Assembly (NCBI GenBank): GCA_003138355.1
Contig: PLFX01000029.1
Coordinates: 1-64,000, forward strand
Length of the DNA stretch: 64,000 bases
Direction: 5' to 3'
From: Solirubrobacterales bacterium
GTDB lineage: Bacteria; Actinomycetota; Thermoleophilia; Solirubrobacterales; Solirubrobacteraceae
Both the position numbers and the translations under genes were made by a program. The notes under the pieces were generated by a model. It was not told the origin of the DNA. It worked only from the letters and a program-made list of their open reading frames with translations, and searched no databases. This document shows positions 34,868 through 51,278 of this stretch, one piece after another (the stretch's first letter is position 1; the number at the start of each line of letters is the position of its first letter).

Positions 34868-35210
34868 GCAAGCCACAGATCGCAGCGCGCGGGCTTCTGC
34901 CGCGGACATTTGCCGACTAAACCGAAGCGCCTCGTGCGCCCGGAACGCCTCGTGCCAGACGCTCCCTCGTCGCGCGGAGCGAGCGCTAGGAGTGGGCGCT
35001 CGCGCACGATCGCTTTGCCTCGAGAGCAGTCACGCTCACCGGCGCCTCCTTCGATGCCCGAGGGCGTTGCATGAGGATCGGGTGAGGCTCGGGAGGATGA
35101 GACGTTGGGCTGGGAAGCCTCCAGCCGTTGGTAGGCTTCGCTGAGTAGGCGATGAGGCTCGCCTTCGCCCGCGCTACCGGCGCTGATGGCCTCTACCGAC
35201 CGTAGAGACC
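34868..35210. other. Intergenic region without a supported gene
   Basis: These 343 bp lie upstream of the MutS-like pair. TGAGGCTCG occurs three times (near 35080, 35087 and 35152 by eye), and a loose repeat of GAAGCCTCCAGCCGTTGGTAGGCTTC suggests a hairpin. The minus-strand ORF 34354-35007 is a shadow. Confidence 0.45.
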
Positions 35211-36749
35211 ATGAGCGAATCGCCTTTTCAGAGCGTTCTCACCCCTGAGGATGCGCGGCTGGTTGTGGAGGGGGGCGAGCCGCCGTACTTCCGTGACCTC
35301 AACCTGGACCAGGTCGTCGCGAGGATCGTCAGGGGCTACGAGGAGTACGAGCTCGGCGCGATCTTCCGAACGCGGCTGTCGAGGACGGACGATGTCCTCT
35401 ACCGCCAGGAGGTCTTCAGCGACCTCGAGGTCGATGAGACGCGAGCCCACGTCGTCGCGTTCGCCGGTGCGATGCGCACGATGCGCCGCCAGCTCGCGCA
35501 GGTCGAGCAGCGCTACTACGCCCGGGAGCGCCAGGGCTGGTTCCTGTTGGTCGCCGCCACCTATGCGGAGGCGGTGACGCGGCTTGACTCGGCGCTCGCT
35601 CCGATCGAGCTTGGCTCGCGTGGCATGCGAGGACTGCGGGATCACCTCCACGCGCACGTCGAAAGCGCCGAATTCAAGAGGCTGGCCGCCGACATTGCGA
35701 GCGTCACCGGCGCGCTTGCCGCGATCCGCTTCGCCGTCAACATCAAGGGCCCGCGCGTCACGATCACGCGCTTCGCGGAGGACGAGGACTACGGCGCCGC
35801 GATTGTGCGCACCTTCGAGCGCTTCCGGCAAGGCAAAGTTGCCGAGCAGAGCTCGGGGGTTCAGAGCTGGCCCGAGAACAGTCACGTCAGCGCACAGATC
35901 CTCGATCGCGTCGCGCGCTTTCACTCTGACGCGTTTGTGGCGCTTGACGAGTTCTGCACCCGCCACCGGCAGTTCAGCGACGCGCTGATCGGGACGTTTG
36001 ACTGCGAGGTCCAGTTCTACATCGCATATCTCGCCCACTGCTCGCAGCTACAGGAAGCCGGTCTGCGCTTCTGCCATCCACGCGTGAGCAGCCGCGCGAA
36101 GACGACGCTCGTTCGGGACGCGTTCGACATGGCGCTCGCACAGAAGCTCGTCGCTGAGGGCGCGCCGGTCGTGACCAACGACATCAAGCTGGATGGTCCC
36201 GAGCGCGCGATCGTCGTCAGCGGCCCAAACCAGGGCGGCAAAACGACGTTCGCCCGGATGTTCGGGCAGCTTCACCACCTGGCGGCGATCGGCTGTCCGG
36301 TCCCCGGGACGCGCGCGCAGCTGATGCTCTGCGACCGGCTCTTCACACACTTCGAGCGCCAAGAGAACATCGCGACTCTCGCCGGCAAGCTCGAGGAGGA
36401 GCTGCAGCGCGTCCACGCGATCCTCGAGCAGGCCGGCGGGCGTAGCGTCGTCGTGATGAATGAGAGCTTCAGCTCGACCTCGCTGCACGACGCCTTCGTG
36501 ATCGGCAGGGCCGTGATCGGCCAGCTGGTCGAGAGCGACCTGCTCTGCGTCTACGTGACGTTCATCGATGAGCTCTCGCGACTCAGTCCGGCCACCGTCA
36601 GCATGGTCAGCAGCATCGACGTGGCCGACCCGGCGACGCGAACGTTCAAGATCCTGCGCCGGCCGGCTGACGGCCTTGCCTACGCTGCCGCGCTCGCCGC
36701 CAAGTACCGGCTCGGCAGCGACCAGGTGGGGGAGCGACTGCGCGGATGA
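35211..36749 (+). CDS. MutS-like ATPase, first of an overlapping pair
   Basis: A 512-aa protein with only the MutS lever/core and ATPase parts; the N-terminal mismatch-recognition and connector domains are missing. Walker A is GPNQGGKTT (about residues 338-346). Walker B is VVVMNESFSSTS, with Asn where MutS has Asp before Glu. The downstream ELSRLSPATVSMVSS region is the usual dimer/ATPase tail. Its stop overlaps the next start (ATGA), indicating coupled synthesis and probably a heterodimer. A role in DNA repair or recombination control is inferred from the fold only. Confidence 0.88.
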   Translation: MSESPFQSVLTPEDARLVVEGGEPPYFRDLNLDQVVARIVRGYEEYELGAIFRTRLSRTDDVLYRQEVFSDLEVDETRAHVVAFAGAMRTMRRQLAQVEQRYYARERQGWFLLVAATYAEAVTRLDSALAPIELGSRGMRGLRDHLHAHVESAEFKRLAADIASVTGALAAIRFAVNIKGPRVTITRFAEDEDYGAAIVRTFERFRQGKVAEQSSGVQSWPENSHVSAQILDRVARFHSDAFVALDEFCTRHRQFSDALIGTFDCEVQFYIAYLAHCSQLQEAGLRFCHPRVSSRAKTTLVRDAFDMALAQKLVAEGAPVVTNDIKLDGPERAIVVSGPNQGGKTTFARMFGQLHHLAAIGCPVPGTRAQLMLCDRLFTHFERQENIATLAGKLEEELQRVHAILEQAGGRSVVVMNESFSSTSLHDAFVIGRAVIGQLVESDLLCVYVTFIDELSRLSPATVSMVSSIDVADPATRTFKILRRPADGLAYAAALAAKYRLGSDQVGERLRG

Positions 36750-38236
36750 AGGTCCGCCTGCTGCACCCCAACAGAGACTACGAGCTCAACGAGAAGCTCG
36801 CGCCACAGCATGAGGACACGGTCTCAGACCTCGCGCTCGAGACACTGTTCGCGACGATGGCCGCCGGCGACACGCGGGTCCATCAAATCGCGCGTGACGT
36901 CATGCTCGCCAGCCTCGACGAGGTGGCGACGATCGAATACCGCCAACGCGCGCTCCAGGACTGCCTCGCACAGCCGCTCGTCGTCACCGAGCTCTACGAG
37001 CTGGCGGTCGGCGTGCGCGAGGCGGAACGACACATTTTCGGCTCGATGTGGCGCTCCCCGACCTCGATTGTCCACCGCTCGGTCCAGGTGCTCGAGCTGT
37101 TCATAGACGCGCTCAAACGCGTCAGCGCGCTGCGCCAGCAGGCCGCGGCGCGCTTCGAATCCGAAGCCTTCGTCAACCTTTTCGCGACACTCGCCAACGA
37201 GCTTGACGACGAGTTCTTCGCGGAGGTTGACCTCCACCTCAAGCGCCTTCACTTCCGCAGCGGCGTACTGGTGAGCGCGGTGCTCGGGCCCGGCAACCGC
37301 GGCGAGCGCGTCGTCCTGCGCGCGCCGCGCGAGCGCAGATGGCGCGAGCGTCTCGCGCTCGCTGAGCGCTCCAGCTACAGCTTCGTCATCCCGCCGCGCG
37401 ACGAGGCCGGCGCCCGCGCGCTCGATGACATCCGCAACCTCGGCATCGGCGACGCCGCCGACGCGCTCGAACAGTCGTGCGAGCACATGCGCAGCTTCTT
37501 CCGCCAACTGCGCGACGAGCTCGGCTTCTATGTCGGCGCGATCAACCTCCACCAAGCGCTCACCACGCGTGGCGCCCCAATCTGCTTCCCGCAAGCCCGA
37601 CCCGCGGACGAGACAACGCTCGCGTTCAGCGACCTGCATGACGTCGCGCTCTGCCTCACGACTGATGCGCCGGTCGTCGGCAACGACCTCGAAGCGACCG
37701 GCAAGCGGCTCGTCGTCATCACTGGTGCCAACCAGGGCGGAAAGTCGACCTTCCTGCGCAGCGTCGGCATCGCCCAGCTGATGGGCCAATGCGGCATGTT
37801 CGTCAGCGCGCGCTCGCTCACGACCGACGTGCGCGACGCGGTCCGCACACACTTCCGCCGCGAAGAGGACGCAACGATGCAAAGCGGCAAGCTCGACGAG
37901 GAGCTGGCACGCATGAGCAAGACGATCGACGCGATGACCGCGCGATCAATTCTGCTCTGCAACGAGTCGTTCGCATCGACCAACGAACTGGAAGGCTCCG
38001 AGATCGCACGCCAGATCGTGTACGCGCTGCTGCAGGCAGGTGTCAAGGTGCTCTACGTGACGCACATGTACGACCTCGCGCAGCGCCTCCACGAGGACGC
38101 AAGCCTCGACGCGGTGTTCCTGCGCGCGCCGCGCGCAACCAACGGCGAGGCTCGCTTCCAACTGCGCGACGGCGCACCGCAGCCGACGAGCCACGGCGAG
38201 GACATCTACGAGCAGATCTTCGGCGAGACACCGTAG
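36746..38236 (+). CDS. MutS-like ATPase, second of an overlapping pair
   Basis: A 496-aa paralogue of the preceding protein. Walker A is GANQGGKST (about residue 327); Walker B is ILLCNESFASTN, again NE instead of DE; YVTHMYDLAQ is the H-loop equivalent. It lacks MutS domains I and II, so it cannot read mismatches the way MutS does. The two genes overlap by 4 bp. The low mutual identity with matching architecture suggests an obligate heterodimer. Confidence 0.88.
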   Translation: MKVRLLHPNRDYELNEKLAPQHEDTVSDLALETLFATMAAGDTRVHQIARDVMLASLDEVATIEYRQRALQDCLAQPLVVTELYELAVGVREAERHIFGSMWRSPTSIVHRSVQVLELFIDALKRVSALRQQAAARFESEAFVNLFATLANELDDEFFAEVDLHLKRLHFRSGVLVSAVLGPGNRGERVVLRAPRERRWRERLALAERSSYSFVIPPRDEAGARALDDIRNLGIGDAADALEQSCEHMRSFFRQLRDELGFYVGAINLHQALTTRGAPICFPQARPADETTLAFSDLHDVALCLTTDAPVVGNDLEATGKRLVVITGANQGGKSTFLRSVGIAQLMGQCGMFVSARSLTTDVRDAVRTHFRREEDATMQSGKLDEELARMSKTIDAMTARSILLCNESFASTNELEGSEIARQIVYALLQAGVKVLYVTHMYDLAQRLHEDASLDAVFLRAPRATNGEARFQLRDGAPQPTSHGEDIYEQIFGETP

Positions 38237-38359
38237 AAGAGCTGCTGCGGCGGGTCTATCGTGTGTCCGTGCTCCTGGGCCTTTCCGTCATGCCGATCGT
38301 CCGCTGAGATGTGCCAGCGCTTTCCCGACTGATTGAGCTGCCCACGACTCGTTCGCCTG

Positions 38360-39180
38360 ATGCCCAGCTCGACTCGGAAGCTGCAAAGCTGGACTGATCA
38401 GCGCATCGAGCGTGAGCTGCGCGAGTTTTTGGTTGGCCGCGACGAGTGGCCTTCGTATCGTGACTTCCAGCGCGCCGGGCGCAAGGTTCTGCGCGACGCG
38501 GTTACCCAATTGGGGGGCGCCTGTCATTGGGCGCGTCGCCTCGGTGTCACCTACGTGGAACGCAAGCCCGGCTACCCAATTCGCTGGACGGATGACCGCA
38601 TCCGCCGGGAGCTCGGCGAGTTCCTGCGTGGCCGCACTGTTTGGCCGCTCCGAATCGAATTCGAGCGATCCGAACGCAAGCCGCTGCGGGACGCCGTCGG
38701 CCGTAGCGGTGGCCCCGAACGGTGGGCGGCAGAGTTCCGCCTGTCCCTCGCGAGTCTTCGCTCCGGTTCCAAGCGCGTCTGGGGCGAGGATCGGATCGAA
38801 CGTGAGCTCCGCCGGTTTCTGAGCGGTCGGTCGCAATGGCCGTCACGGCGCGCCTTCGAGCAAGCTGGGCTGTCCTCGATGCTGTCTGCGGTCTACTGTC
38901 GCGGCGGCCCTGGATACTCTGGGCAGGCCGCATGGGAGTGCAGCACACCGCCCGGCCGGGCGGTGGTGGACCGCGGATCTGGACGGACGAGCGGTTGCGG
39001 GCGGAGCTCGAGGAGTTCTGTCGCGGGCGCACGACCTGGCCGCCAGAACGCGTTTTCCGCGAAGCCAGCAAGGAGCGCCTGTACAACGCCGCTAGTGGCC
39101 ACGGTGGCGTCGGCTACTGGGCCGACCGCCTCGGCCTTGAGCGGTATAGCCGGGTAGGCGTGAAGAGCGGCAGCCCGTGA
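38360..39180 (+). pseudogene. Four-repeat protein (homing-endonuclease-associated-repeat-like), frameshifted
   Basis: Starting at ATG 38360, three repeats of about 50 residues follow the pattern WTDDRIRRELGEFLRGR, WP...F..., L..AV...GG..WA..LG. The fourth repeat (IWTDERLRAELEEFCRGR) is in another frame. The break is at 38917-38920, where CTCT stands for an expected CT: removing two bases restores GGPGY then WAGRMGV. The repeat resembles Pfam HNH_repeat, a DNA-binding unit attached to homing endonucleases and Tox proteins. No nuclease domain is present. The gene may be dead, phase-variable or misread by the sequencer. Confidence 0.7.
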
Positions 39181-39518
39181 CAGCACCCGCGGCAGCTGTT
39201 GCGAGGCCCCGGTACGGTCGGTTGCGCGAAGCGAAGAGGGAATGGTGATGACACTCCAACATGCTTCGCGATCCGCCCACAGGGGCGGCTTTGAATGACG
39301 CAGCCGCACGTGGCTGCCGATACCGAACCTTGGGCGTCGCGCTCGACGGAGCGGCGCCTTGGTATTGGCGAGGATCGATGTTCGCGCCTTGACACCCGGT
39401 GTGCCGCTGCGCTAGAAACCGGGACGCAGTACGCGATGAGGTCCGCGTGAAGCTCGCCGTCTCGGCTAATGACTTCTACCCGACGCGACAAGGGTGGAGT
39501 CGTTAAGCGGAGGCGCCG
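39181..39518. other. Intergenic region upstream of the Ehr-type operon
   Basis: This is 338 bp with no supported gene. It contains the promoter-like pair at 39389-39418 and the GGAGG ribosome site of the first Ehr gene. Confidence 0.6.
39389..39418 (+). promoter_or_regulatory. Sigma-70-like promoter for the Ehr-type operon
   Basis: TTGACA at 39389-39394, an 18-bp spacer, then TAGAAA at 39413-39418. It lies about 100 bp before the GTG start of the first gene, in the correct orientation. No other good candidate was found in the gap. Confidence 0.5.
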
Positions 39519-40466
39519 GTGGATTACGTCGTCCAGTTACTGCAGAGCCTGGTGGTGCTTTTCCTCGCGCCGCTGTACAGCGGCGCGATCGCGCGAGCCG
39601 AGGCTGTTGTGCAGTCCAAGCGCGGCCCGAGCGTGCTGCAGCCCTACCGTGATCTCGCGAAGCTGCTGCGCAAAGGCAGCGCGATCTCGCAGGAGGCGTC
39701 GTGGATCTTCCGCGGCGCGCCGTTCGTCGCGTTCGCGTGCTACCTGACGGTGTCGGTGATCGTGCCGGTGATCACCGACGAGCCGCTGCCGCTCGCGTTC
39801 CTCGCCGACCTGATCGGCGGCGCGTTCGTCCTCGGACTGGCAAGCTTCGCGATCTCGCTCGCGGCGCTCGACACCGCCAGTCCACTCGGCGGTCTGGGCG
39901 CGAGCCGCACGACCTGGATCGGCAGCTTCGCCGAACCGGCGCTGATCCTCGTCTTCTTCACCGTCGGGGTGCTCTCAGCGTCAGACAACCCGTATCTGAT
40001 GAACCACGCGATCGCGCACTCGCCCTATGCGCTCGTGCTGCCGACGCACATCCTCGGCGCGGTCGCCTTCTTCATGATCGTGCTCGCCGAGAACGGGCGG
40101 ATCCCGATCGACAACCCGGCCGGCACGATCGAGATCTCGATGATCGAGGAGAGCCGCGTGCTCGAGTACTCCGGCCGCGAGTACGCGCTCGTCAAGTGGG
40201 GCAGCTGGATGAAGGTCTTCCTGATGTCGGCGATCCTCATGAACGTGTTCGTGATCCCCTGGGGGCTCGGGGGGGCGAGCGACCTGCCGAGCGCGCTGCT
40301 GGGGATCCTCGCGCTCGCGGGCAAGCTCGTCGTCTGCGGCACAGCGATCGTGATCGTCGACAGCTCGTTCGCGAAGCTGCGCTTCTTCCGCATCGCCGAG
40401 TTCCTCGGTGCCGCGTTCCTGCTCCCACTGGTCGGCGTGGCGACCTCGTTCGTGATCGGCCAGTAG
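39519..40466 (+). CDS. Ehr/hydrogenase-4-like membrane subunit, NuoH family (HyfC-like)
   Basis: A 315-aa protein with about eight membrane helices. Start GTG 39519 follows GGAGG. Family motifs are ARAEAVVQSKRGPSVLQPYRD near the N-terminus, LGASRTTWIGSFAEP, and the cytoplasmic loop AENGRIPIDNPAGTIEISMI with its acidic run, corresponding to the quinone-loop region of NuoH. In complex I and hydrogenase-4 this subunit links the peripheral redox arm to the proton channels. It is the first gene of a seven-gene cluster. Confidence 0.92.
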   Translation: MDYVVQLLQSLVVLFLAPLYSGAIARAEAVVQSKRGPSVLQPYRDLAKLLRKGSAISQEASWIFRGAPFVAFACYLTVSVIVPVITDEPLPLAFLADLIGGAFVLGLASFAISLAALDTASPLGGLGASRTTWIGSFAEPALILVFFTVGVLSASDNPYLMNHAIAHSPYALVLPTHILGAVAFFMIVLAENGRIPIDNPAGTIEISMIEESRVLEYSGREYALVKWGSWMKVFLMSAILMNVFVIPWGLGGASDLPSALLGILALAGKLVVCGTAIVIVDSSFAKLRFFRIAEFLGAAFLLPLVGVATSFVIGQ

Positions 40467-40469
40467 GCG

Positions 40470-41144
40470 ATGGAGAGCCTCTCCGCGCTATCGACTGAGG
40501 GCGTCCTGCTCAACCTCGCGGCGGTCGTGATCCTGCTGTGCGCGTTCGCCTGTCTGGGATCGAAGCTGTTCGACCGCTACATCGCCTACTACGGGCTGCA
40601 GTCCCTGACGCTCGCGTTCGCGGTCGGCGTCGTCGCCGACCAGCGAAGCGAACCGGGGCTGTGGGCGTTGGCGGCGATTACGCTCGTCATCAAGGGCATC
40701 GCGATCCCGCTGGCTACGCGACTGTTCCTGCTCGACCGCTTCGACCTCAGCCGTGATGTGGCGCTCTCCACGGGACTTTCGCGCTCGCTGGTGCTCGGTG
40801 CGGCGCTGACGGTGTTCGCCTACCTGACGATCGGGAGCGGCGAGATCGGCGTCGCGCTGGACACGCGCGCGGTTGTCCCGATCGCCGTCGCGGTGATCCT
40901 GCTCGGCGGTCTGTGCATGGTCGTGCGCCGGCACACGATCGCGCAGCTCGTCGGCTGGCTGATCATCGAGAACGGCGCGTTCCTGATGGCGATCGCGACC
41001 GTCGCCACGTTTCCGTTCATCGTCGAGGCAGGCGTCTTCCTCGACCTCGTCGCGGCCGTGCTGATCATGCTCACCTTTGTGTCCGGCCTGGCGGCGCGTC
41101 TGGCCGAGGCGAGCGCATCCGAGCTGCGGCAGCTGAGCGAATGA
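40470..41144 (+). CDS. Ehr/hydrogenase-4-like membrane subunit, HyfE-like (NuoK-related)
   Basis: A 224-aa protein with six or seven membrane helices, starting 3 bp after the preceding stop. The conserved GWLIIENGAFLMAI segment carries the HyfE/NuoK membrane glutamate involved in proton translocation. It overlaps the next gene by 4 bp (ATGA). It forms part of the membrane ion channel together with the two antiporter-like subunits. Confidence 0.88.
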   Translation: MESLSALSTEGVLLNLAAVVILLCAFACLGSKLFDRYIAYYGLQSLTLAFAVGVVADQRSEPGLWALAAITLVIKGIAIPLATRLFLLDRFDLSRDVALSTGLSRSLVLGAALTVFAYLTIGSGEIGVALDTRAVVPIAVAVILLGGLCMVVRRHTIAQLVGWLIIENGAFLMAIATVATFPFIVEAGVFLDLVAAVLIMLTFVSGLAARLAEASASELRQLSE

Positions 41145-42634
41145 CGATCGCACTCGCCCTGGCCGTCGTCGGCCTGCCGTTGCTGCCAGCGCTGGCAGCG
41201 ATTTTCACGGCGCGAGCCCGGCCGCTCGGCTTCATCGCCGTCGCAGCCGGGCTCCTCACGCTGGCAGGGGCGGTCGCGCTCGCCATACATCTCGCTGGCG
41301 GGTCGCGCACGCACGCGTTGAGCGGCTTCGTCTCGCTCGATGCGCTGAGCGGCTTCTTCGTCTTCACGGTCGCGCTCGTCGTGGCGCTGGCGAGTTTCGG
41401 CTCGGCTGCCTACCTGCGCACGGAGGAGCAGCGCGGCGAGCTCAGCCCACTCCAGGTTCGCCTCTACTTCGTTTTCTTCGCGCTGTTTGCGTCGCTGATG
41501 CTGGCGGCGTTCGAGACTGGGAACCTCGGCCTGCTGTGGGTGCTGATCGAGGCGAGCACGCTCGCCAGCTGCGTCCTCGTGGGACTGGAGGCCAAGGCCG
41601 TCTCGCTCGAGGCGGCGTGGAAGTACATCATCATCAGCTCGTTCGGCGTGACGATCGCGCTGGTCGGCACGCTCTTCCTCTATTACGCTGCGAGCGGCCT
41701 GACCGGGTCGCCGACCGAGCACCTGACCTGGTCGTTCCTGTTCGCGCACGGCGGCGGACTGCAACACAACAGCCTGCGGCTGGCGTTCCTGCTGATCGTC
41801 GTCGGCTACGGGACGAAGGTCGGGCTGGCGCCGATGCACACCTGGCTGCCCGACGCGCACTCCGAGGCGCCCAGCCCTGCGAGCGCGATGCTGTCGGCGG
41901 CGCTGCTCAACACCGGCATGTACGCGATCATCCGCTTCCAGGCGATCGCGGATGTCGGGCTCGGCAGCGGATTCGCGAGCGACGTGCTGCTCGTGTTCGG
42001 CTTCTTGTCGATCACGATCGGGGCGCTGTTCATCGTCCTGCGCGGCAACTTCAAGCGGCTGTTCGCTTATTCCTCGGTCGAGCAGATGGGCATCATCGCG
42101 GTCGCGCTCGGCTTCGGCGGCCCACTCGGGTTCTACGGCGCTTTGCTGCAGACGCTCTGCCACGCGATCGCCAAGGCCGTGCTGTTCCTGACCTCCGGGG
42201 ATCTCGTCCTGCGCTTCCGCACGCGCCTCGTCGACGAGGTCCGGGGCGTGATCGGGCTGATGCCGCTGACCGGCGCGGCGCTGCTGCTTGGCGCGCTTGC
42301 CGTTGCCGGCTCGCCGCCGTTCGGGCTGTTCCTCAGCGAGCTGACGATCGTGCGCGCCGGCTTCGCCAGCTCGAACGCTGTGCTCGTCGGCCTTTTGCTG
42401 GTGCTGCTCGTCGTTGCGTTCATCGCGCTGATGCGCTCCTGTGCCGCGATGGCGCTGGGCGTAAGCACCGACGCGGATGGGAGCGAGGTAACGGTCGCAT
42501 ACGCCGAACGCTCCGGCCGGCTGCTGGCCGGAGCGCCGCTGGTCGTCGGGCTCGCCGCGCTGCTGGTCCTCGGCGTCTGGATCCCCGGCGTTCTCGACCG
42601 GCTGATCACGCACGCGGTCGGAGTCATCACATGA
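41141..42634 (+). CDS. Ehr/hydrogenase-4-like proton-antiporter subunit, HyfF-like (NuoL/M/N family)
   Basis: A 497-aa protein with about 14 helices; start ATG 41141, overlapping the stop of the preceding gene. Antiporter-family landmarks are LLWVLIEASTLASCVLVG (key Glu), GYGTKVGLAPMHTWLPDAHSEAPSP (key Lys and His) and KRLFAYSSVEQMGII (second Lys). These residues support a complete proton path. It overlaps the large-subunit gene by 4 bp. Confidence 0.92.
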   Translation: MTIALALAVVGLPLLPALAAIFTARARPLGFIAVAAGLLTLAGAVALAIHLAGGSRTHALSGFVSLDALSGFFVFTVALVVALASFGSAAYLRTEEQRGELSPLQVRLYFVFFALFASLMLAAFETGNLGLLWVLIEASTLASCVLVGLEAKAVSLEAAWKYIIISSFGVTIALVGTLFLYYAASGLTGSPTEHLTWSFLFAHGGGLQHNSLRLAFLLIVVGYGTKVGLAPMHTWLPDAHSEAPSPASAMLSAALLNTGMYAIIRFQAIADVGLGSGFASDVLLVFGFLSITIGALFIVLRGNFKRLFAYSSVEQMGIIAVALGFGGPLGFYGALLQTLCHAIAKAVLFLTSGDLVLRFRTRLVDEVRGVIGLMPLTGAALLLGALAVAGSPPFGLFLSELTIVRAGFASSNAVLVGLLLVLLVVAFIALMRSCAAMALGVSTDADGSEVTVAYAERSGRLLAGAPLVVGLAALLVLGVWIPGVLDRLITHAVGVIT

Positions 42635-44145
42635 CGGCGCGTACACAGACACAGAAGCTGCCGGCCGCCTTCGCGCAGGTCGCCCCCGGAGTCAGCGCCG
42701 CACAGATCGACAGCGCCCAGCTCGGAGCGATCACCCACGAGCTGGCCGACGTCCACCGCGCACGCCTCGCTGACCTCTTCGCGAGCGAATCGGAACAGGG
42801 CGCCGTGGTCCTGCGCGCCGTCTACGCACACGACACCGAGAGCCGTTACCTCGTCCTCGAGTGTCCCGTCAGCGGACCGCTGTTCCCGGCGCTCTCGGAC
42901 CTCGACCCGGCAGCGTTCGTCGAGGAGTGCGAGATCTACGAGCAGTTCGCGATCCGACCCGACAGCGTCAAGCCGCTGAACCGCATGCTAATGCCGCCGC
43001 ACGCCGAGGAGAGTTTCCCGCGGCTCGGCCGCCGCCCGCGGCCGCCACTCAAGGACGTGCACGCGCGGCACGTGGTCGCCGGCGAGGCGTTCGAGTTCCC
43101 GTTCGGCCCGGTTCGCGCTGCGGGCTGGGAGAGCCTTTACATGGGGCTCGTGACGACGGGCGAGGAGGTGCTCGACCTTTACCTCGCGCACTGGCACAAG
43201 CACCGCGGCATCGAGCGGCGCCTGGCCGGCCTCGAGTCCGAGCGGGCGCTGTTCTTCACCGAGCGCATGGACGGCTTGAACGCGGTCGGCAACGGGCTGG
43301 CGCTGTGTCGCGCGATCGAGAGCGCCGCAGGCGCCACGGTGCCCACGGCGGCCGCGCACACCCGCTCGATCGCGCTCGAGCTGGAACGGATCTACAACCA
43401 CGCGGCGGCAATCGCCGCGACATGCCAAACGACCGGGCTGTCGGTCGGTCAGGCCCGTGCCGAGATCGTGCTCGAGCGGCTGCTGCGGCTCAACGCAGCC
43501 GCGTTCGGTCACCGCTACCTGTTCGACGTCCTGGCGCCGGGCGGCGTACGCCGCGCGCCCGACACGGCAGCGATACGCGAGCAGCTGCCGGGAGCGTGCG
43601 CCGAGTTCCGGCGCGTCGTGCAAGCCCTGCTGCGGACCAACTCGCACGTCGACCGCCTCGAGACGACGGGTGTGCTGACGCGCGAGCAGGCGGAGCGCCT
43701 GAGTCTCGTCGGACCGCTCGCGCGAGCATCGGGCTGCACGATCGACTCGCGTGCCGACCATCCGTTCGCGCCCTACGATCAGCTCGAGCTCGCGCCGGCC
43801 GTCGGCGAAGGTGGCGATGTGCTCGCCCGGATGAAGGTGATGGTGGCCGAGGTCGCGGCCTCGGAGCGGCTCGTGCTCGACCAGCTCGGCGACGCCGGGC
43901 CTGGGCGGATCGATGTCTCGCCGCGCTCCGCGGCGGCGCTCGGCTGGGCGGAATCGCCGCGCGGGGAGGCACTGGTGTGGGTCGCGTTCGACTCGCGAGG
44001 TTCGATCGAGCGAGCGCGGCTGCGCCCGGCGGCGGTGCGCAACTGGCGCGCGTTCGATGACGCAGCACGCGCCCAGAACGTGTTCACCGACATCCCGATC
44101 ATCGAGGCCAGCTTCTGGCTGACCGTCGCGGGGTTCGCGCGCTGA
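42631..44145 (+). CDS. Ehr-type large subunit, HyfG/NuoCD-like, without NiFe-binding cysteines
   Basis: A 504-aa protein in which a NuoC-like N-terminal domain (residues 30-120) is fused to the NuoD/hydrogenase large-subunit fold. Where group 4 hydrogenases have RVCGIC this protein has ERMDGLNAVG (residues 211-220). Where they end in DPCxSC it ends IIEASFWLTVAGFAR. All four nickel-iron cysteines are therefore absent, so it cannot be a hydrogenase. This loss defines the energy-converting hydrogenase-related (Ehr) complexes, whose substrate is unknown. It is translationally coupled on both sides. Confidence 0.92.
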   Translation: MTARTQTQKLPAAFAQVAPGVSAAQIDSAQLGAITHELADVHRARLADLFASESEQGAVVLRAVYAHDTESRYLVLECPVSGPLFPALSDLDPAAFVEECEIYEQFAIRPDSVKPLNRMLMPPHAEESFPRLGRRPRPPLKDVHARHVVAGEAFEFPFGPVRAAGWESLYMGLVTTGEEVLDLYLAHWHKHRGIERRLAGLESERALFFTERMDGLNAVGNGLALCRAIESAAGATVPTAAAHTRSIALELERIYNHAAAIAATCQTTGLSVGQARAEIVLERLLRLNAAAFGHRYLFDVLAPGGVRRAPDTAAIREQLPGACAEFRRVVQALLRTNSHVDRLETTGVLTREQAERLSLVGPLARASGCTIDSRADHPFAPYDQLELAPAVGEGGDVLARMKVMVAEVAASERLVLDQLGDAGPGRIDVSPRSAAALGWAESPRGEALVWVAFDSRGSIERARLRPAAVRNWRAFDDAARAQNVFTDIPIIEASFWLTVAGFAR

Positions 44146-44483
44146 TGGCGTACTGGTTCCTGCGCGGCCTCGGCCACGGGATCGTGACGACGCGCTACCC
44201 AAAGGCGATCGACGTCTGGACGCAGACGCTCCCGACCCCGCCGGCGTTCCACTCCGATCGGCTGACGCTTGCGCTTGCCGACAGGCTGGTCGCCGTCTGC
44301 CCCTCGCGAGCGCTCGCGCGCGAAGCCGACGAGCTGGTCGTCGACCTTGGCGCCTGCACGGCCTGCGGGCGCTGCATCGACGAGGGTCGCGGTGCCGTCG
44401 AGGCGAGCGGCGTCTTCGAGCTCGCCAGCACGAGCCGCGAGCGGCTCGTCAAGCGCGTGCGGATCGGCGGAGGAGCCGGGTGA
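44145..44483 (+). CDS. Ehr-type iron-sulfur subunit, HyfH/NuoI-like, single cluster
   Basis: A 112-aa protein starting one base inside the preceding stop. The N-terminus (YWFLRGLGHGIVTTRYP) matches NuoI/HycF family proteins. Only CTACGRC plus one CPSRAL cysteine remain, enough for a single [4Fe-4S] cluster instead of the usual two. This shortens the electron wire to the large and NuoB-like subunits. Confidence 0.87.
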   Translation: MAYWFLRGLGHGIVTTRYPKAIDVWTQTLPTPPAFHSDRLTLALADRLVAVCPSRALAREADELVVDLGACTACGRCIDEGRGAVEASGVFELASTSRERLVKRVRIGGGAG

Positions 44484-44968
44484 GCGAGCCGACAGCAGAT
44501 CAGCTGCGTCGCCGAGCGCTCGCGCTGTTTGGGCGCAGCCTGCATATCCGCACCGTCGATACGGGCTCGTGCGCAGTCTGCGAGTCGGAGATCCGGCTGC
44601 TGTCGGCGCCGCCCTACGACCTGCACCGGCTCGGCTTCTTCCTCACGCCGGCGCCCCGTCACGCGGACCTGCTGCTCGTCACCGGCCCCGCCGTCCGTGC
44701 GATGGATAACGCGCTGCTGAAGGCCTACGAAGCGACGCCCGACCCGAAGGCGGTGGTCGCGGTCGGCGCCTGCGCCCTCGGCGGCATCTACGAGGAGGAC
44801 GGGCTCGTCCACGGTGCGCTCGACCGTGTCTTGCCCATCGACGTTTACATCCCCGGCTGCCCGCCGAGCCCGCTCGCGCTGCTGCAGGGACTGCTCGTTG
44901 CGGTCGGCCGTCTGGAGGAGCGTGTCGCTGCGCTCAGCTTCGATCTCGTGGCGGAGGCCGAGCGATGA
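44480..44968 (+). CDS. Ehr-type small subunit, HyfI/NuoB-like
   Basis: A 162-aa protein; start GTG 44480 overlaps the preceding stop by 4 bp (GTGA). The cluster ligands of the NuoB family are present: GSCAVCESEI, VAVGACALGG and IPGCPPSPLALLQ, so the N2-type [4Fe-4S] cluster should be bound. With the NuoC/D-like protein it would form the catalytic interface. Confidence 0.92.
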   Translation: MSEPTADQLRRRALALFGRSLHIRTVDTGSCAVCESEIRLLSAPPYDLHRLGFFLTPAPRHADLLLVTGPAVRAMDNALLKAYEATPDPKAVVAVGACALGGIYEEDGLVHGALDRVLPIDVYIPGCPPSPLALLQGLLVAVGRLEERVAALSFDLVAEAER

Positions 44969-46983
44969 GCCACGCGATCACGGTGCTGGTGCTCGCTACG
45001 GGTGGGCTGTGGCTGCTCGCAGCGATGACGGGCCTGGCCGCCGCTCGCCGCGAGCTATGGCTGCGCGCTGCAGCGCTGGCGTCTGGGCTCGGCGGCGCCT
45101 GCGCGGTCACGGGCGGTGTGCTACTCGCGATCCACGGGCACGCGACCAACGTCAGCGTCGGCTCGAACGTCGTCGGCACGGCAAATCTGCGAGTCACGCC
45201 GCTCGCCGCGGCGTTCATCGTCCTGCTCGGGATCATCGCCGTGGCGATCGCGCTCTACGCGCCGCGCTACCACTCGCCGGGGCGAGGCACAGCGCTGTAC
45301 ACCTGCGTCTACAACCTCGCCCTGATCGCCTCGCTGGTCGTGCTCGCCGCCGGCAGCGTCGTCACGTTCCTCGTCGCGTGGGAGTCGATGGCGCTGCTCA
45401 GCTATCTCCTGATCCTGCGCCACCAGGAGCGCGAGGGCGTCGCGCGCGGCGCGTTCCTGTTCCTCGCGTTGAGCGAGATCGGCTTCGCCCTGATCGTTGC
45501 CGCGTTCGCGATCCTCGCCACCCAGACCCACACGCTCGATCTGGCGACGATGGCCGCGCGCGCGAGCCACGTCGGTGCCGGCTGGCGCACAGCGGCCTTC
45601 CTGCTCGCGCTGCTCGGCTTCGGCTTCAAGGCCGGCGTCGTCCCGCTCCACGTCTGGCTCCCCGCGGCGCACCCGGTCGCACCCGCCGACGGCTCGGCAT
45701 TCCTCTCAGGCATGGTGATCAAGCTCGGCATCTACGGCATCGCGCTATTCACCGTCACGCTGCTGCGCGACGGCCCCGCCTGGTGGGGACTGCTCATCAT
45801 GGGGCTTGGCGCAGCCTCAGCCGTGCTCGGCATCCTCTACGCCCTGATGGAGCGCGACCTCAAGCGCTTCCTCGCGTTCTCGAGCATCGAGAACGTTGGC
45901 ATCATCCTTGTAGCGCTCGGGGCGTCACTGACGTTCGCCGCCTACCACCAGCGCGCGATCGCGACGTTCCTGCTGATCACCGCGCTCTACCACGCCGTCA
46001 ACCACGGCGTCTACAAGACGCTGCTGTTCCTCGAAGCCGGCGTCATCGAGCACACGACCGGTACCCGCGACCTCGACCGCCTCGGCGGCCTGATCCGGCG
46101 GCTGCCGCGCACCTCGGTGATCTCGCTGATCGGCACGATGGGGATCGCGGCGCTGCCGCCGCTCAACGGCTTCGTCACCGAATGGATGCTGTTCCAGGGT
46201 CTCTTCCAGGGCTTTCGCATCGCCAACCACACCGTCGGCATCCTGATCGTCGTCGCGGGCGCCGTCGTCGCGCTCACCGCCGGCTTGGCACTGAACGCGT
46301 TCGCGCGCGCCTACGGCATTCCGTTCCTCGGCATGCCCCGCTCGCGCGGCGCGGCGCGCGCGCAGGAGCGTGGACAGCCAATCGCCGGCCCGGCTCTGCT
46401 GGCCGTTATCTGCGTCTTCCTCGGCGTCGGAGCGCCGCTGGTGCTCACCGTGCTGTCGCGCACGGCGCACTTCATCACTGGTGTTGACATCCACGCTGAG
46501 CTGCTGCTCCCGCAGCTCACGGTGATCCCGGCGCACACGAACTTCTCGGGCTTCTCGCCGACCTACCTCGCCGCGTTCATCCTCGCCGTCACTGCCGTTC
46601 CGATCCTGATCTACCTGGCCGGGCGTCCCCGCGCTGCGAGCCGCACCGTACCCGTCTGGGACGGCGGGATCCGCGCGTTCGAAGCGCGGATGCAGTACAC
46701 AGCGACGACCCACGCGAACCCCGTGCGCGTCACCTTCGACCCGCTCTACAGGCCGGCGGTCGAGCTCCAGCGGGCGTCCGACGACCCCGCCGGACGCTCC
46801 GGTCCCGTGCACTACGGCTTCCGCGTGACGCCGATCTTCGAGCGCTACCTCTACCAACCAGTGGTCCGCGCCGTCGAGTGGCTAGCCGACCGCGCGCGGC
46901 CGATCCAATCCGGCGACGTGAGCCTCTACCTCCTCTACGTGTTCGTCGCGGTGATCGTCGCGTTCGCCATCTACGCAAAATGA
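44965..46983 (+). CDS. Ehr/hydrogenase-4-like proton-antiporter subunit, HyfB-like (NuoL family)
   Basis: A 672-aa protein with about 16 helices, overlapping the preceding gene by 4 bp. Key sites are FLVAWESMALLSYLLIL (Glu), FKAGVVPLHVWLPAAHPVAPA (Lys/His) and ERDLKRFLAFSSIENVGII (Lys). Its long C-terminal part (VWDGGIRAFEARMQYTATTH) is typical of HyfB/HycC. It is the last gene of the Ehr cluster. Confidence 0.92.
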   Translation: MSHAITVLVLATGGLWLLAAMTGLAAARRELWLRAAALASGLGGACAVTGGVLLAIHGHATNVSVGSNVVGTANLRVTPLAAAFIVLLGIIAVAIALYAPRYHSPGRGTALYTCVYNLALIASLVVLAAGSVVTFLVAWESMALLSYLLILRHQEREGVARGAFLFLALSEIGFALIVAAFAILATQTHTLDLATMAARASHVGAGWRTAAFLLALLGFGFKAGVVPLHVWLPAAHPVAPADGSAFLSGMVIKLGIYGIALFTVTLLRDGPAWWGLLIMGLGAASAVLGILYALMERDLKRFLAFSSIENVGIILVALGASLTFAAYHQRAIATFLLITALYHAVNHGVYKTLLFLEAGVIEHTTGTRDLDRLGGLIRRLPRTSVISLIGTMGIAALPPLNGFVTEWMLFQGLFQGFRIANHTVGILIVVAGAVVALTAGLALNAFARAYGIPFLGMPRSRGAARAQERGQPIAGPALLAVICVFLGVGAPLVLTVLSRTAHFITGVDIHAELLLPQLTVIPAHTNFSGFSPTYLAAFILAVTAVPILIYLAGRPRAASRTVPVWDGGIRAFEARMQYTATTHANPVRVTFDPLYRPAVELQRASDDPAGRSGPVHYGFRVTPIFERYLYQPVVRAVEWLADRARPIQSGDVSLYLLYVFVAVIVAFAIYAK

Positions 46984-47022: not shown

Positions 47023-48333
<1,311 letters not shown>

Positions 48334-48700: not shown

Positions 48701-49876
48701 TCAGCCGGGTTCGCCGATCAGGATCTCGGCCGGTTCGGGCGGCAGCATGTGCGGATGGTGCTCGGTCGGCCGGCGTGGCGAGAACCATCGCTGGGCGATG
48801 GCTGTGGGGACGATCGCGGAGAGAACGACGACCGTGACCAGGAGTGAGAATTGTGTGCGGTCGATGATGTGCGCGGTGAGGCCGTATAGCGCGCTGATCG
48901 TGCCGAACGTCAGCCCGGTGCTCATCAGCAGCGTCGTGAAGGTCGCGTTCGGCTTGGCGTAGCGGCGGGCGAGCGGATAGATCAGCCCGAGCTTGGGAAC
49001 CATCTTCGCCGCGACCAGCACGCCGAGAATGCCGAGGTTCGCGAACACCGCGGCGAGCGAAACGTTCATCCCGCCGCGCAAGAAGAAGAACGGCGTCAGG
49101 AACGCAAACGCCACCACGCGCAGCCGCCGCTGTTCCTCTTGGTGTCGCTGGTAGTGGCGCGACATAACCAATCCGAGGACGAACGCCGGCAGCACGGCCT
49201 GGCTGTTGGCCTGGTCGGCCAAGACCATCAGTCCCAGAAGGATGGCGAAGACGATCTTGATTTCCGGCTCGATCACACGGTCGCCGTAGCGCTTGAAGAA
49301 CCATGGCGAGAGCTTTGGCAGCGCGACGATCACCGCCACGGATACGGCGAGGAAGACCGGGAACCAGGCTGTCGGCTTGATGAAGATCACCGACAGCGCG
49401 ATCACCGTGCACATGTCGGTTACGAAGCAAGCGCTCATGATCAGCTTGCCGACGCGAACCGTGTTGAGCCCCGTCTCGACCAGCACGGCGTAGACGACGG
49501 CAAGGCTCGTGGTCGAGAGCGCGGTGCCCGCGATCAGCGACGCCTTGGTCGTCCATCCGAGCGGGCCGAGCGCGACGAGTGTGGCGACCGCGAATGGGCC
49601 GGCAAACGACACGACACCGACTGTGATCGCGGCGCCGAACCGCTCGCGGAAGTAATCGGGATCAACCTCCGCCCCAGCGAGGAACGTGAGCACGACTGAC
49701 GCGAAGCTTGCGATGAACACGAGCCAACTCGCGTCCGGGTTCAGATGGAACGTGTTGCCCAGCGTGATGCCGAGCGCGAGCTCGATGAGCGCGACCGAGA
49801 CTCCGACCTCGACCGACACCACGCTGGCCAGCAAGAACGCGCCAGCAAGAATTGCTGCGAGCGAAACAGGCGTCAC
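48701..49876 (-). CDS. Cation:proton antiporter, CPA2 (Kef/GerN-like)
   Basis: A 391-aa protein with about 12 membrane helices; start GTG 49876. The family core includes ELALGITLGNTF, LTFLAGAEVDPDYFRERFG, GTALSTTSLAVVYAVL and FFFLRGGMNVSL. There is no TrkA-N regulatory domain. It exchanges Na+ or K+ for H+. Next to an Ehr complex with proton-channel subunits it could recycle the ion gradient, but it is on the opposite strand. Confidence 0.92.
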   Translation of the reverse strand: MTPVSLAAILAGAFLLASVVSVEVGVSVALIELALGITLGNTFHLNPDASWLVFIASFASVVLTFLAGAEVDPDYFRERFGAAITVGVVSFAGPFAVATLVALGPLGWTTKASLIAGTALSTTSLAVVYAVLVETGLNTVRVGKLIMSACFVTDMCTVIALSVIFIKPTAWFPVFLAVSVAVIVALPKLSPWFFKRYGDRVIEPEIKIVFAILLGLMVLADQANSQAVLPAFVLGLVMSRHYQRHQEEQRRLRVVAFAFLTPFFFLRGGMNVSLAAVFANLGILGVLVAAKMVPKLGLIYPLARRYAKPNATFTTLLMSTGLTFGTISALYGLTAHIIDRTQFSLLVTVVVLSAIVPTAIAQRWFSPRRPTEHHPHMLPPEPAEILIGEPG

Positions 49877-49941
49877 TAGTAGACCTCCGCGATGCGTCGT
49901 TTGACGTTGTCGTAGAGGCCATCAGCGGCCAACAGCCGCAG
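49876..49941 (-). pseudogene. Possible C-terminal remnant of a gene upstream of the antiporter
   Basis: An open frame LRLLAADGLYDNVKRRIAEVY ends in TAG that overlaps the antiporter GTG by one base, the spacing of coupled genes. An in-frame TAA just before it shows that the upstream part is lost. I cannot assign a family; a chance 21-codon frame is possible. Confidence 0.3.
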
Positions 49942-50256
49942 TTACCGGGGCGAGCCTCATCGCCTCACCACAGAATGCTACCCAGTCCGATGGTGTCACG
50001 CCGTCGCAGCAAAAGCACGCGCCAAGCCCATCAGCACGCCGCATCAAAGACAGTTGCTTTGACTGTGGCGAAAGGAACAGCGCGACCCGCCCGGCCCACG
50101 TTGCTGCTTCCGCGTGATTTGGAGCGTCTGCGTTGCGTCGTTCACGTGACCGCCGCGCATCGGCTCGATCGCGGGACAACGTCCCGGCGAGAGCGCTCGC
50201 GTGCAACGGAACGACATTATCGGCCTAAAAAACGGCCTATTTGCAGGTCCTTTCTA
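49942..50256. other. Intergenic region at the right end of the island
   Basis: These 315 bp contain no supported gene. The last part, ACGGCCTATTTGCAGG, carries an inverted copy of the CCTGCAAA motif found on the other side of the tRNA remnant. Confidence 0.5.
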
Positions 50257-50828: not shown

Positions 50829-51278
50829 ATGAGCGACCGTCCGTTGAGGATCTCGATGGTCGCGCTTGCTGCGATCGGCGTCGCGGTCATGATCTACCTC
50901 ACAGTCCTCCACTACGACACCGCCGTGGTGCCGTGCCTCGCACGCAACAATCCTTGCGAGGCGGTGCAGCCCTCGATCTACTCCAAGCTCGCCGGCGTGC
51001 CCGTCGCGGTGCTTAGGCTGATCGGCTACGTCGCGATGCTCGCCGCGCTGCTGGCGCCCGACCGCGACTATCTGAGGCTCGCAGCGCTCGCCGTCGCGCT
51101 GTTCGGCGTCATTTTCAGCGGCTACCTCACCTACCGCGAGATCTTCACGCTGAAGATGATCTGCGAGTGGCGCGTGACTAGCGCCGGCATCATGGTGGTG
51201 CTGCTGATCGGGGCGATCGCGCGCTCCTGGCGCGGCTTGGACTCCTCGGCCGGCGGCGAGGCCCCGGCGTCCTCATAG
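50829..51278 (+). CDS. Vitamin K epoxide reductase (VKOR)-family membrane protein, incomplete CxxC
   Basis: A 149-aa protein with four membrane helices; ATG 50829, or ATG 50856 which has a better-spaced GAGG. VKOR features are the cysteine loop VPCLARNNPCEAVQPSIYS, the conserved SxYSxxxGVP, and the last helix after KMICEWRVTSA. Bacterial VKORs have CxxC at that last site; here it is CEWR, so the disulfide-exchange pair that reacts with quinone is broken. No DsbA-like partner is adjacent. It may be non-functional or use a different chemistry. Confidence 0.85.
   Translation: MSDRPLRISMVALAAIGVAVMIYLTVLHYDTAVVPCLARNNPCEAVQPSIYSKLAGVPVAVLRLIGYVAMLAALLAPDRDYLRLAALAVALFGVIFSGYLTYREIFTLKMICEWRVTSAGIMVVLLIGAIARSWRGLDSSAGGEAPASS

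Follow-up and report, generated by a model that had tools for sequence, protein, structure and literature searches.

The stretch analysed here, called the window, is a 64,000-nt segment of a Solirubrobacterales genome (contig PLFX01000029.1). At positions 39519-46983 it contains seven same-strand, hydrogenase-4-like genes in the order hyfC-E-F-G-H-I-B. They encode an Ehr-type (Ech-hydrogenase-related) complex, a kind of complex that is already known, and the large subunit lacks the cysteines that ligate the nickel-iron (NiFe) site. Sequence evidence strongly supports regulation of the cluster by a fluoride riboswitch in the hyfC leader. The genes are tightly packed, with a 3-nt gap between hyfC and hyfE followed by five overlaps of 1-4 nt each. 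Families were assigned with Pfam and NCBIfam, and the features are as follows.

39423 to 39485, plus strand: fluoride riboswitch aptamer (RF01734) in the leader of hyfC, with 33 nt separating it from the gene; 33.4 bits, E 4.7e-6 in 16.5 kb and 1.9e-7 in the genome
39486 to 39518, plus strand: hyfC ribosome-binding region and predicted expression platform, which by minimum free energy (MFE) folding would pair with the 3' strand of an unformed aptamer
39519 to 40466, plus strand: hyfC-like, NuoH-type membrane subunit of 315 residues (PF00146, NADHdh, 2.5e-33; aligned with Escherichia coli HyfC/HycD)
40470 to 41144, plus strand: hyfE-like membrane subunit of 224 residues (NF008556, hydrogenase-4 membrane subunit, 1.9e-15)
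41141 to 42634, plus strand: hyfF-like antiporter-type membrane subunit of 497 residues (NF005044, 5.5e-120), with the ion-path residues E, K and E present
42631 to 44145, plus strand: hyfG-like large subunit of 504 residues without NiFe cysteines (Complex1_49kDa; HycE alignment)
44145 to 44483, plus strand: hyfH-like ferredoxin subunit of 112 residues with one 4Fe-4S site, CP plus CxxCxxC (weak ferredoxin match)
44480 to 44968, plus strand: hyfI-like, NuoB-type small subunit of 162 residues with four cluster cysteines (PF01058, Oxidored_q6, 4.7e-24)
44965 to 46983, plus strand: hyfB-like antiporter-type membrane subunit of 672 residues (NF005086, 1.3e-174)

The closest solved relatives are HycE for HyfG (E 5.3e-39), HycG for HyfI, and HycC for HyfB, and the hydrogenase-4/Ech-like genes that make up the Ehr set all lie in one operon. 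When 84,980 species genomes were scanned, 80 loci were recovered. A quick maximum-likelihood tree of 95 large-subunit sequences, with support from the Shimodaira-Hasegawa-like approximate likelihood ratio test (SH-aLRT) and no bootstrap, places the cysteine-less Ehr proteins, including a Geobacteraceae sequence, in one clade (66 rows, SH-aLRT 99). The window HyfG groups with these proteins and not with the NiFe enzymes. Nested among them is clade A, 33 proteins including that of the window (SH-aLRT 100). In clade A the genes run C-E-F-G-H-I-B, whereas B-C-E-F-G-I prevails in classical Ehr and among the enzymes that keep the cysteines. A subclade of clade A, A1 (6 rows, SH-aLRT 100), unites the window with Actinobacteria and one Xanthobacteraceae genome; the window HyfG is 81% identical to that of a sister species (G001) and 56-61% identical to those of other A1 members.

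Against the sister species, the ratio of nonsynonymous to synonymous substitution rates (dN/dS) is 0.09-0.26 over the seven genes, indicating that all are under purifying selection. The recurrence of the same cluster in Actinobacteria and Xanthobacteraceae at 56-81% HyfG identity, with low dN/dS, is thus not a product of chance or decay. Because metal ligands disappear step by step within the clade, the cluster could be taken for a functionless, decaying hydrogenase remnant, but the frames are intact, and gene order and riboswitch are conserved over several phyla. The selection pattern rules out a pseudogene, and we consider a remnant of this sort highly improbable.

When HyfG is aligned with HycE, RVCGIC becomes RMDGLN (within ERMDGLN) and DPCYSC becomes WLTVAG (within SFWLTVAGFAR), leaving D, N, T, and G at the four NiFe ligand positions. 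The two NiFe-binding CxxC motifs of a group 4 NiFe hydrogenase are therefore missing, and a cysteine occupies a ligand position in 0 of the 33 clade-A HyfG proteins. HyfG ends in an arginine that aligns with the final residue (537) of the HycE chain in structure 7z0s, and so it has no C-terminal extension for cleavage. An AlphaFold2 model of HyfG (predicted local distance difference test score 88.9) has the HycE/NuoD fold, with Z scores of 47.1 to 7z0s_E and 44.3 to complex-I NuoD, a comparison that speaks to this fold only and not to the pocket ligand. The confident fold indicates that the HyfG scaffold is intact despite the lost metal site.

Similarity to HycE and HyfB, together with published descriptions of riboswitch-linked genes as formate hydrogen lyase, might suggest a true hydrogenase or formate hydrogenlyase. 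However, the absence of the ligands from every clade-A member refutes this assignment, which is the least credible of those considered. The original prediction had allowed that resequencing might reveal intact NiFe cysteines, or that a separate catalytic large subunit might replace HyfG. Conservation of the cysteine-less state across the clade argues that it is not a sequencing error. A replacement subunit is ruled out as well, because the single intact NiFe large subunit of the genome is encoded on a different contig (C14), within the real NiFe hydrogenase operon (L039 6367-14821). That separate operon also contains Hyp genes and a gene for an NAD-binding flavin/Fe-S subunit. A nuo-type NuoD, too, is encoded apart from the window contig. 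FdhF was not recognised among the window genes examined, and no genome-wide search for it was made.

The remaining electron-transfer and ion-path residues of the window complex agree with what had been predicted for it. The tightly joined Ehr-type cluster without NiFe cysteines keeps all four NuoB-like cluster cysteines in HyfI, has a ferredoxin-like subunit reduced to one cluster (one CxxCxxC and one CP in HyfH, sufficient for a single cluster), and retains the antiporter Lys and Glu residues, as E/K/E in both HyfB and HyfF. Elsewhere in clade A, the redox part varies. HyfH has two clusters in proteobacterial members and one in most actinobacterial members. In an actinobacterial branch, A2 (L038, L040, L043, L107, L115, L120), HyfI has lost all four proximal Fe-S ligands, with SDGSEE, TDA, and PGSPP in place of SCNGCE, TCA, and PGCPP. 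The E/K/E residues of HyfB and HyfF are nevertheless kept in members without the HyfI cluster. The lysine of HyfB transmembrane helix 8 is kept in A1 and lost in the other clade-A members compared. Loss of the Fe-S ligands in A2 together with retention of the core ion residues suggests that the conserved function would be ion transport rather than redox chemistry. Taken across the clade, these sequences argue for ion translocation without the old redox chemistry as the simplest common function. As a separate observation, a Chloroflexi cluster (L070 4554-4693 and 4971-12305) keeps the NiFe cysteines and has lost HyfI cluster cysteines; a cyclic di-AMP riboswitch lies directly upstream of its hyfB.

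A redox-driven pump working under fluoride stress is a rival that we think unlikely. Ferredoxin-type electrons would pass via HyfH to the HyfI cluster and then to a small acceptor (a quinone, a sulfur species, or another compound) at the remodelled NiFe site, with pumping of H+. The clusters retained by the window HyfI and HyfH, the two HyfH clusters of the proteobacterial members, and the preserved HycE/NuoD fold would all suit such a path. Against it, the A2 branch retains the operon, and several of its members the fluoride riboswitch, despite the loss of the HyfI ligands, and the HyfH cluster is itself eroding, with only three cysteines left in L055. In addition, the complex-I quinone-headgroup residues NuoD His38 and Tyr87 are missing in all clade-A members, their positions being W/L/Q/V and G in the subclade of the window. 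Quinone reduction by the complex-I mechanism is thus unsupported at these positions.

The fluoride riboswitch stands out clearly from background. Only three matches to RF01734 are found in the 2.76-Mb genome, all in this neighbourhood, and the next-best background score is 13.6 bits; the hyfC aptamer is the second-scoring of the three. Its pseudoknot, GAGGU/ACUUC between the P1 loop and the 3' strand, forms all five pairs. The same pseudoknot is paired in 28 of 28 aptamers (100% of cells), and in four of the five pairs both partners vary; a nested-pair covariance model gives it no score. A chance match is ruled out by the background score and the pseudoknot covariation.

MFE folding of the hyfC leader gives 25 pairs between the aptamer and the sequence that follows it (z -2.36). 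In the MFE folds of six leaders, a purine-rich stretch preceding the start codon is base-paired with the aptamer's 3' strand, pseudoknot portion included. The fluoride-bound aptamer and the leader hairpin would be mutually exclusive, which fits a translational ON switch; only two of the six leaders show a clear shift in the accessibility calculated for the start region. The folding of the hyfC leader is therefore compatible with translational switching, with fluoride binding and control as predictions of the model.

Genes known to accompany fluoride riboswitches include those for CrcB, enolase, MutS, and formate hydrogen lyase (PMC2864571; PMC11139923). Since such genes adjoin clade-A clusters, a riboswitch was predicted before hyfC, and Rfam matches confirmed it. 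A covariance model (R1) applied to 93 sources, and trained on clade-A hits, finds the riboswitch before hyfC in 22 of the 25 clade-A clusters with readable upstream sequence and in 0 of 61 other Ehr or hydrogenase clusters. As a control, Rfam's own model detects it in 0 of 7 loci outside clade A. A second sample comprised 246 genomes from the phylum of the window, searched with Rfam's own model, with clade-A HyfG assigned by motif. Here the riboswitch is present in all eight genomes with a clade-A-type HyfG (the window's included, and three of them from one genus), compared with 38 of 238 others. In six of these eight genomes, a riboswitch on the hyfG strand is found 3.2-3.7 kb upstream of that gene, a placement seen in 0 of 18 genomes with other HyfG.

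The recurrent neighbours of clade A are a pair of ~500-residue MutS-domain-V proteins, enolase, CrcB (of the Fluc fluoride channel family), and DUF190; some loci also adjoin a universal stress protein or a dynamin-like GTPase. MutS pairs are found near 10 of 30 clade-A loci and enolase near 9 of 30, each against 0 of 61 others. The overlapping MutS pair, for which MutS_V is the sole substantial Pfam match, has a fluoride riboswitch of its own and lies beside clade-A Ehr genes in both Actinobacteria and Proteobacteria. The leader of the Na+/H+ exchanger in the window carries the best-scoring fluoride riboswitch of the genome. The neighbouring features of the window are these.

35139 to 35202, plus strand: fluoride riboswitch aptamer, 8 nt upstream of the first MutS-like gene; 28.4 bits, with E 2.1e-4 over 16.5 kb and 8.3e-6 over the genome
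35211 to 36749, plus strand: MutS-domain-V ATPase, first of the pair, 512 residues (PF00488, 2.6e-18)
36746 to 38236, plus strand: MutS-domain-V ATPase, second of the pair, 496 residues (PF00488, 3.3e-19)
47059 to 48333, plus strand: enolase, 75 nt downstream of hyfB (PF00113, 1e-121)
48701 to 49876, minus strand: Na+/H+ exchanger, 391 residues (PF00999, 5.8e-39)
49906 to 49973, minus strand: fluoride riboswitch aptamer in the leader of the exchanger gene; 38.2 bits, above the gathering score

An open reading frame with internal repeats (38333-39157; W..DRI.REL..FL.GR..WP) and no Pfam match separates the MutS pair from the Ehr leader, and a VKOR-family gene (50856-51278) lies behind the exchanger. 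A Verrucomicrobia locus (L126 1128-2018 and 3719-11900) is an exception to the association with clade A: there, a classical Ehr stands beside CrcB and DUF190, with no riboswitch detected.

The genome has three fluoride riboswitches, yet a CrcB/Fluc gene was not found in the draft assembly (93.7% complete), and neither of its two CLC proteins has the CLC-F signature as given in PMC11139923. This raises the idea that the complex itself exports fluoride through its antiporter-like subunits, by F-/H+ or F-/cation exchange. Set against that idea are the incompleteness of the draft and the presence of CrcB beside the cluster in many relatives. Furthermore, the ions that antiporter-like subunits are known to move are H+ or Na+ and not halides. 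Direct fluoride export is accordingly very improbable, and less likely than a role in pH and proton-motive-force homeostasis.

Clade-A clusters also occur in pairs. In the sister species, the A1 cluster is directly followed by a second clade-A cluster, and tandem or divergent pairs are seen at L037 8608-19001 with L038, L053 507-14215, and L079 3-14198, several with two riboswitches; in L053, an A1 cluster and another clade-A cluster are arranged divergently. Relatives of the window genome (L041, L044-L050) have a second cluster type in the order B-C-E-F-G-I, which keeps CxxC and CYAC and lacks HyfH, with an ArsR-type regulator near several of them. This order resembles that of Rv0081-Rv0087 in Mycobacterium tuberculosis.

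Fluoride lowers pH and proton-motive force, fluoride riboswitches upregulate resistance genes, and Na+/H+ antiporters are the next commonest riboswitch-linked class after exporters (PMC11139923). Acidification by hydrogen fluoride (HF) and the riboswitch-linked Na+/H+ antiporters, one of them in the window, favour a role in pH and proton-motive-force homeostasis. The picture that these sequences suggest, to which we assign a probability of roughly 0.6, is a fluoride-induced, complex-I-like, ion-translocating Ehr complex serving that homeostasis. Fluoride enters as HF, acidifies the cytoplasm and drains proton-motive force, and fluoride export would add to the drain. Fluoride binding would stabilise the hyfC-leader aptamer, and the formed aptamer would free the ribosome-binding region and turn on hyfC translation. 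The complex, for which we infer ion transport, would then move H+ (or exchange Na+/H+) across the membrane, restoring cytoplasmic pH and proton-motive force. The former catalytic module would probably be a structural or gating part, with HyfH and HyfI providing residual redox input at most in the version found in the window. The original prediction that a redox or conformational reaction is coupled to ion transport is reasonable as far as it goes; it left the driving reaction open and overlooked the riboswitch at 39423-39485 and the fluoride neighbourhood. It is the riboswitch, the MutS pair, the enolase, and the Na+/H+ exchanger that point to a physiological role for the complex.

Several points weigh against a homeostatic ion transporter of this kind. 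Net H+ export requires an energy source, and a secondary antiporter without a redox drive only exchanges ions. With the HyfI cluster and one HyfH cluster kept, a redox drive is possible for the window version. The hyfC aptamer is 0.6 bits below the Rfam cut-off (gathering score 34 bits), as is, by more, the MutS-pair aptamer at 28.4 bits, and the leader of the A1 ortholog in the sister species has a weak riboswitch score of 15 bits. Finally, related sequences inherit the riboswitch jointly, so the Fisher values for these counts, which take no account of shared ancestry, overstate how independent the cases are. A bolder proposal, that electron transfer was abandoned in favour of a fluoride-stress ion transporter that may even move fluoride or HF, with the pocket now serving as a gate or a fluoride-sensing site, strikes us as improbable.

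Ehr complexes are already known, and formate-hydrogen-lyase genes are already listed under the fluoride riboswitch. In the literature covered, which was incomplete, no paper was found that links fluoride riboswitches to a cysteine-less Ehr clade or reports loss of the proximal cluster in a branch of riboswitch-linked Ehr. Nor was an assigned function for Ehr complexes found; the riboswitch supplies a definite inducer for one of their clades and opens the question of function to tests in culturable strains. Isolates with the cluster include Paraburkholderia domus LMG 31832, Rhodopila globiformis DSM 161, and Candidimonas humi DSM 25336. The fluoride literature counts formate hydrogen lyase among the common fluoride-riboswitch genes and takes this as a shift to fermentation. 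Every riboswitch-linked cluster examined is cysteine-less and thus cannot be a formate hydrogen lyase, which calls for a correction. In addition, a single fluoride-linked clade in which first the NiFe site and later the proximal Fe-S cluster were lost is a natural series for asking what the non-redox part of complex-I-like machines is capable of.

Among known systems, the Ehr of Geobacter (Coppi 2005, as cited by PMC13194489) is like the window in having hydrogenase-4-like subunits and a HycE/NuoD-like large subunit without NiFe cysteines. The clade of the window is separate from Geobacter-type Ehr in the tree and differs from it in gene order (C-E-F-G-H-I-B versus B-C-E-F-G-I), in its fluoride riboswitch and fluoride gene neighbourhood, and in the residues at the lost ligand positions, which are D/E, N/S/G, T, and G as opposed to mostly S, S/T/N, S, and G in classical Ehr. 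E. coli formate hydrogenlyase/hydrogenase-4 (7z0s, hyf operon) provides the closest solved large, small, and antiporter-type subunits, but the window operon lacks the NiFe ligands, hyfD, a HyfA/HycB-type subunit, and hyfJ. Respiratory complex I has the NuoB, NuoD, NuoH, and antiporter-like families in common with the window, which lacks NuoD His38/Tyr87 and, in the operon, the NADH module. The fluoride-riboswitch regulon (crcB motif; Weinberg 2010 PMC2864571; PMC11139923) places MutS, enolase, CrcB, Na+/H+ exchanger, and formate-hydrogen-lyase-like genes behind RF01734, as is seen here; these papers name the complex formate hydrogen lyase, whereas the genes of the window clade lack the hydrogenase metal site. 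Mrp-type Na+/H+ antiporters also have antiporter-like subunits with an E/K/E ion path. Unlike a stand-alone Mrp system, however, the window operon includes NuoB- and NuoD-like subunits, and its antiporter-like subunits stay joined to NuoB-, NuoC/D-, and ferredoxin-like partners.

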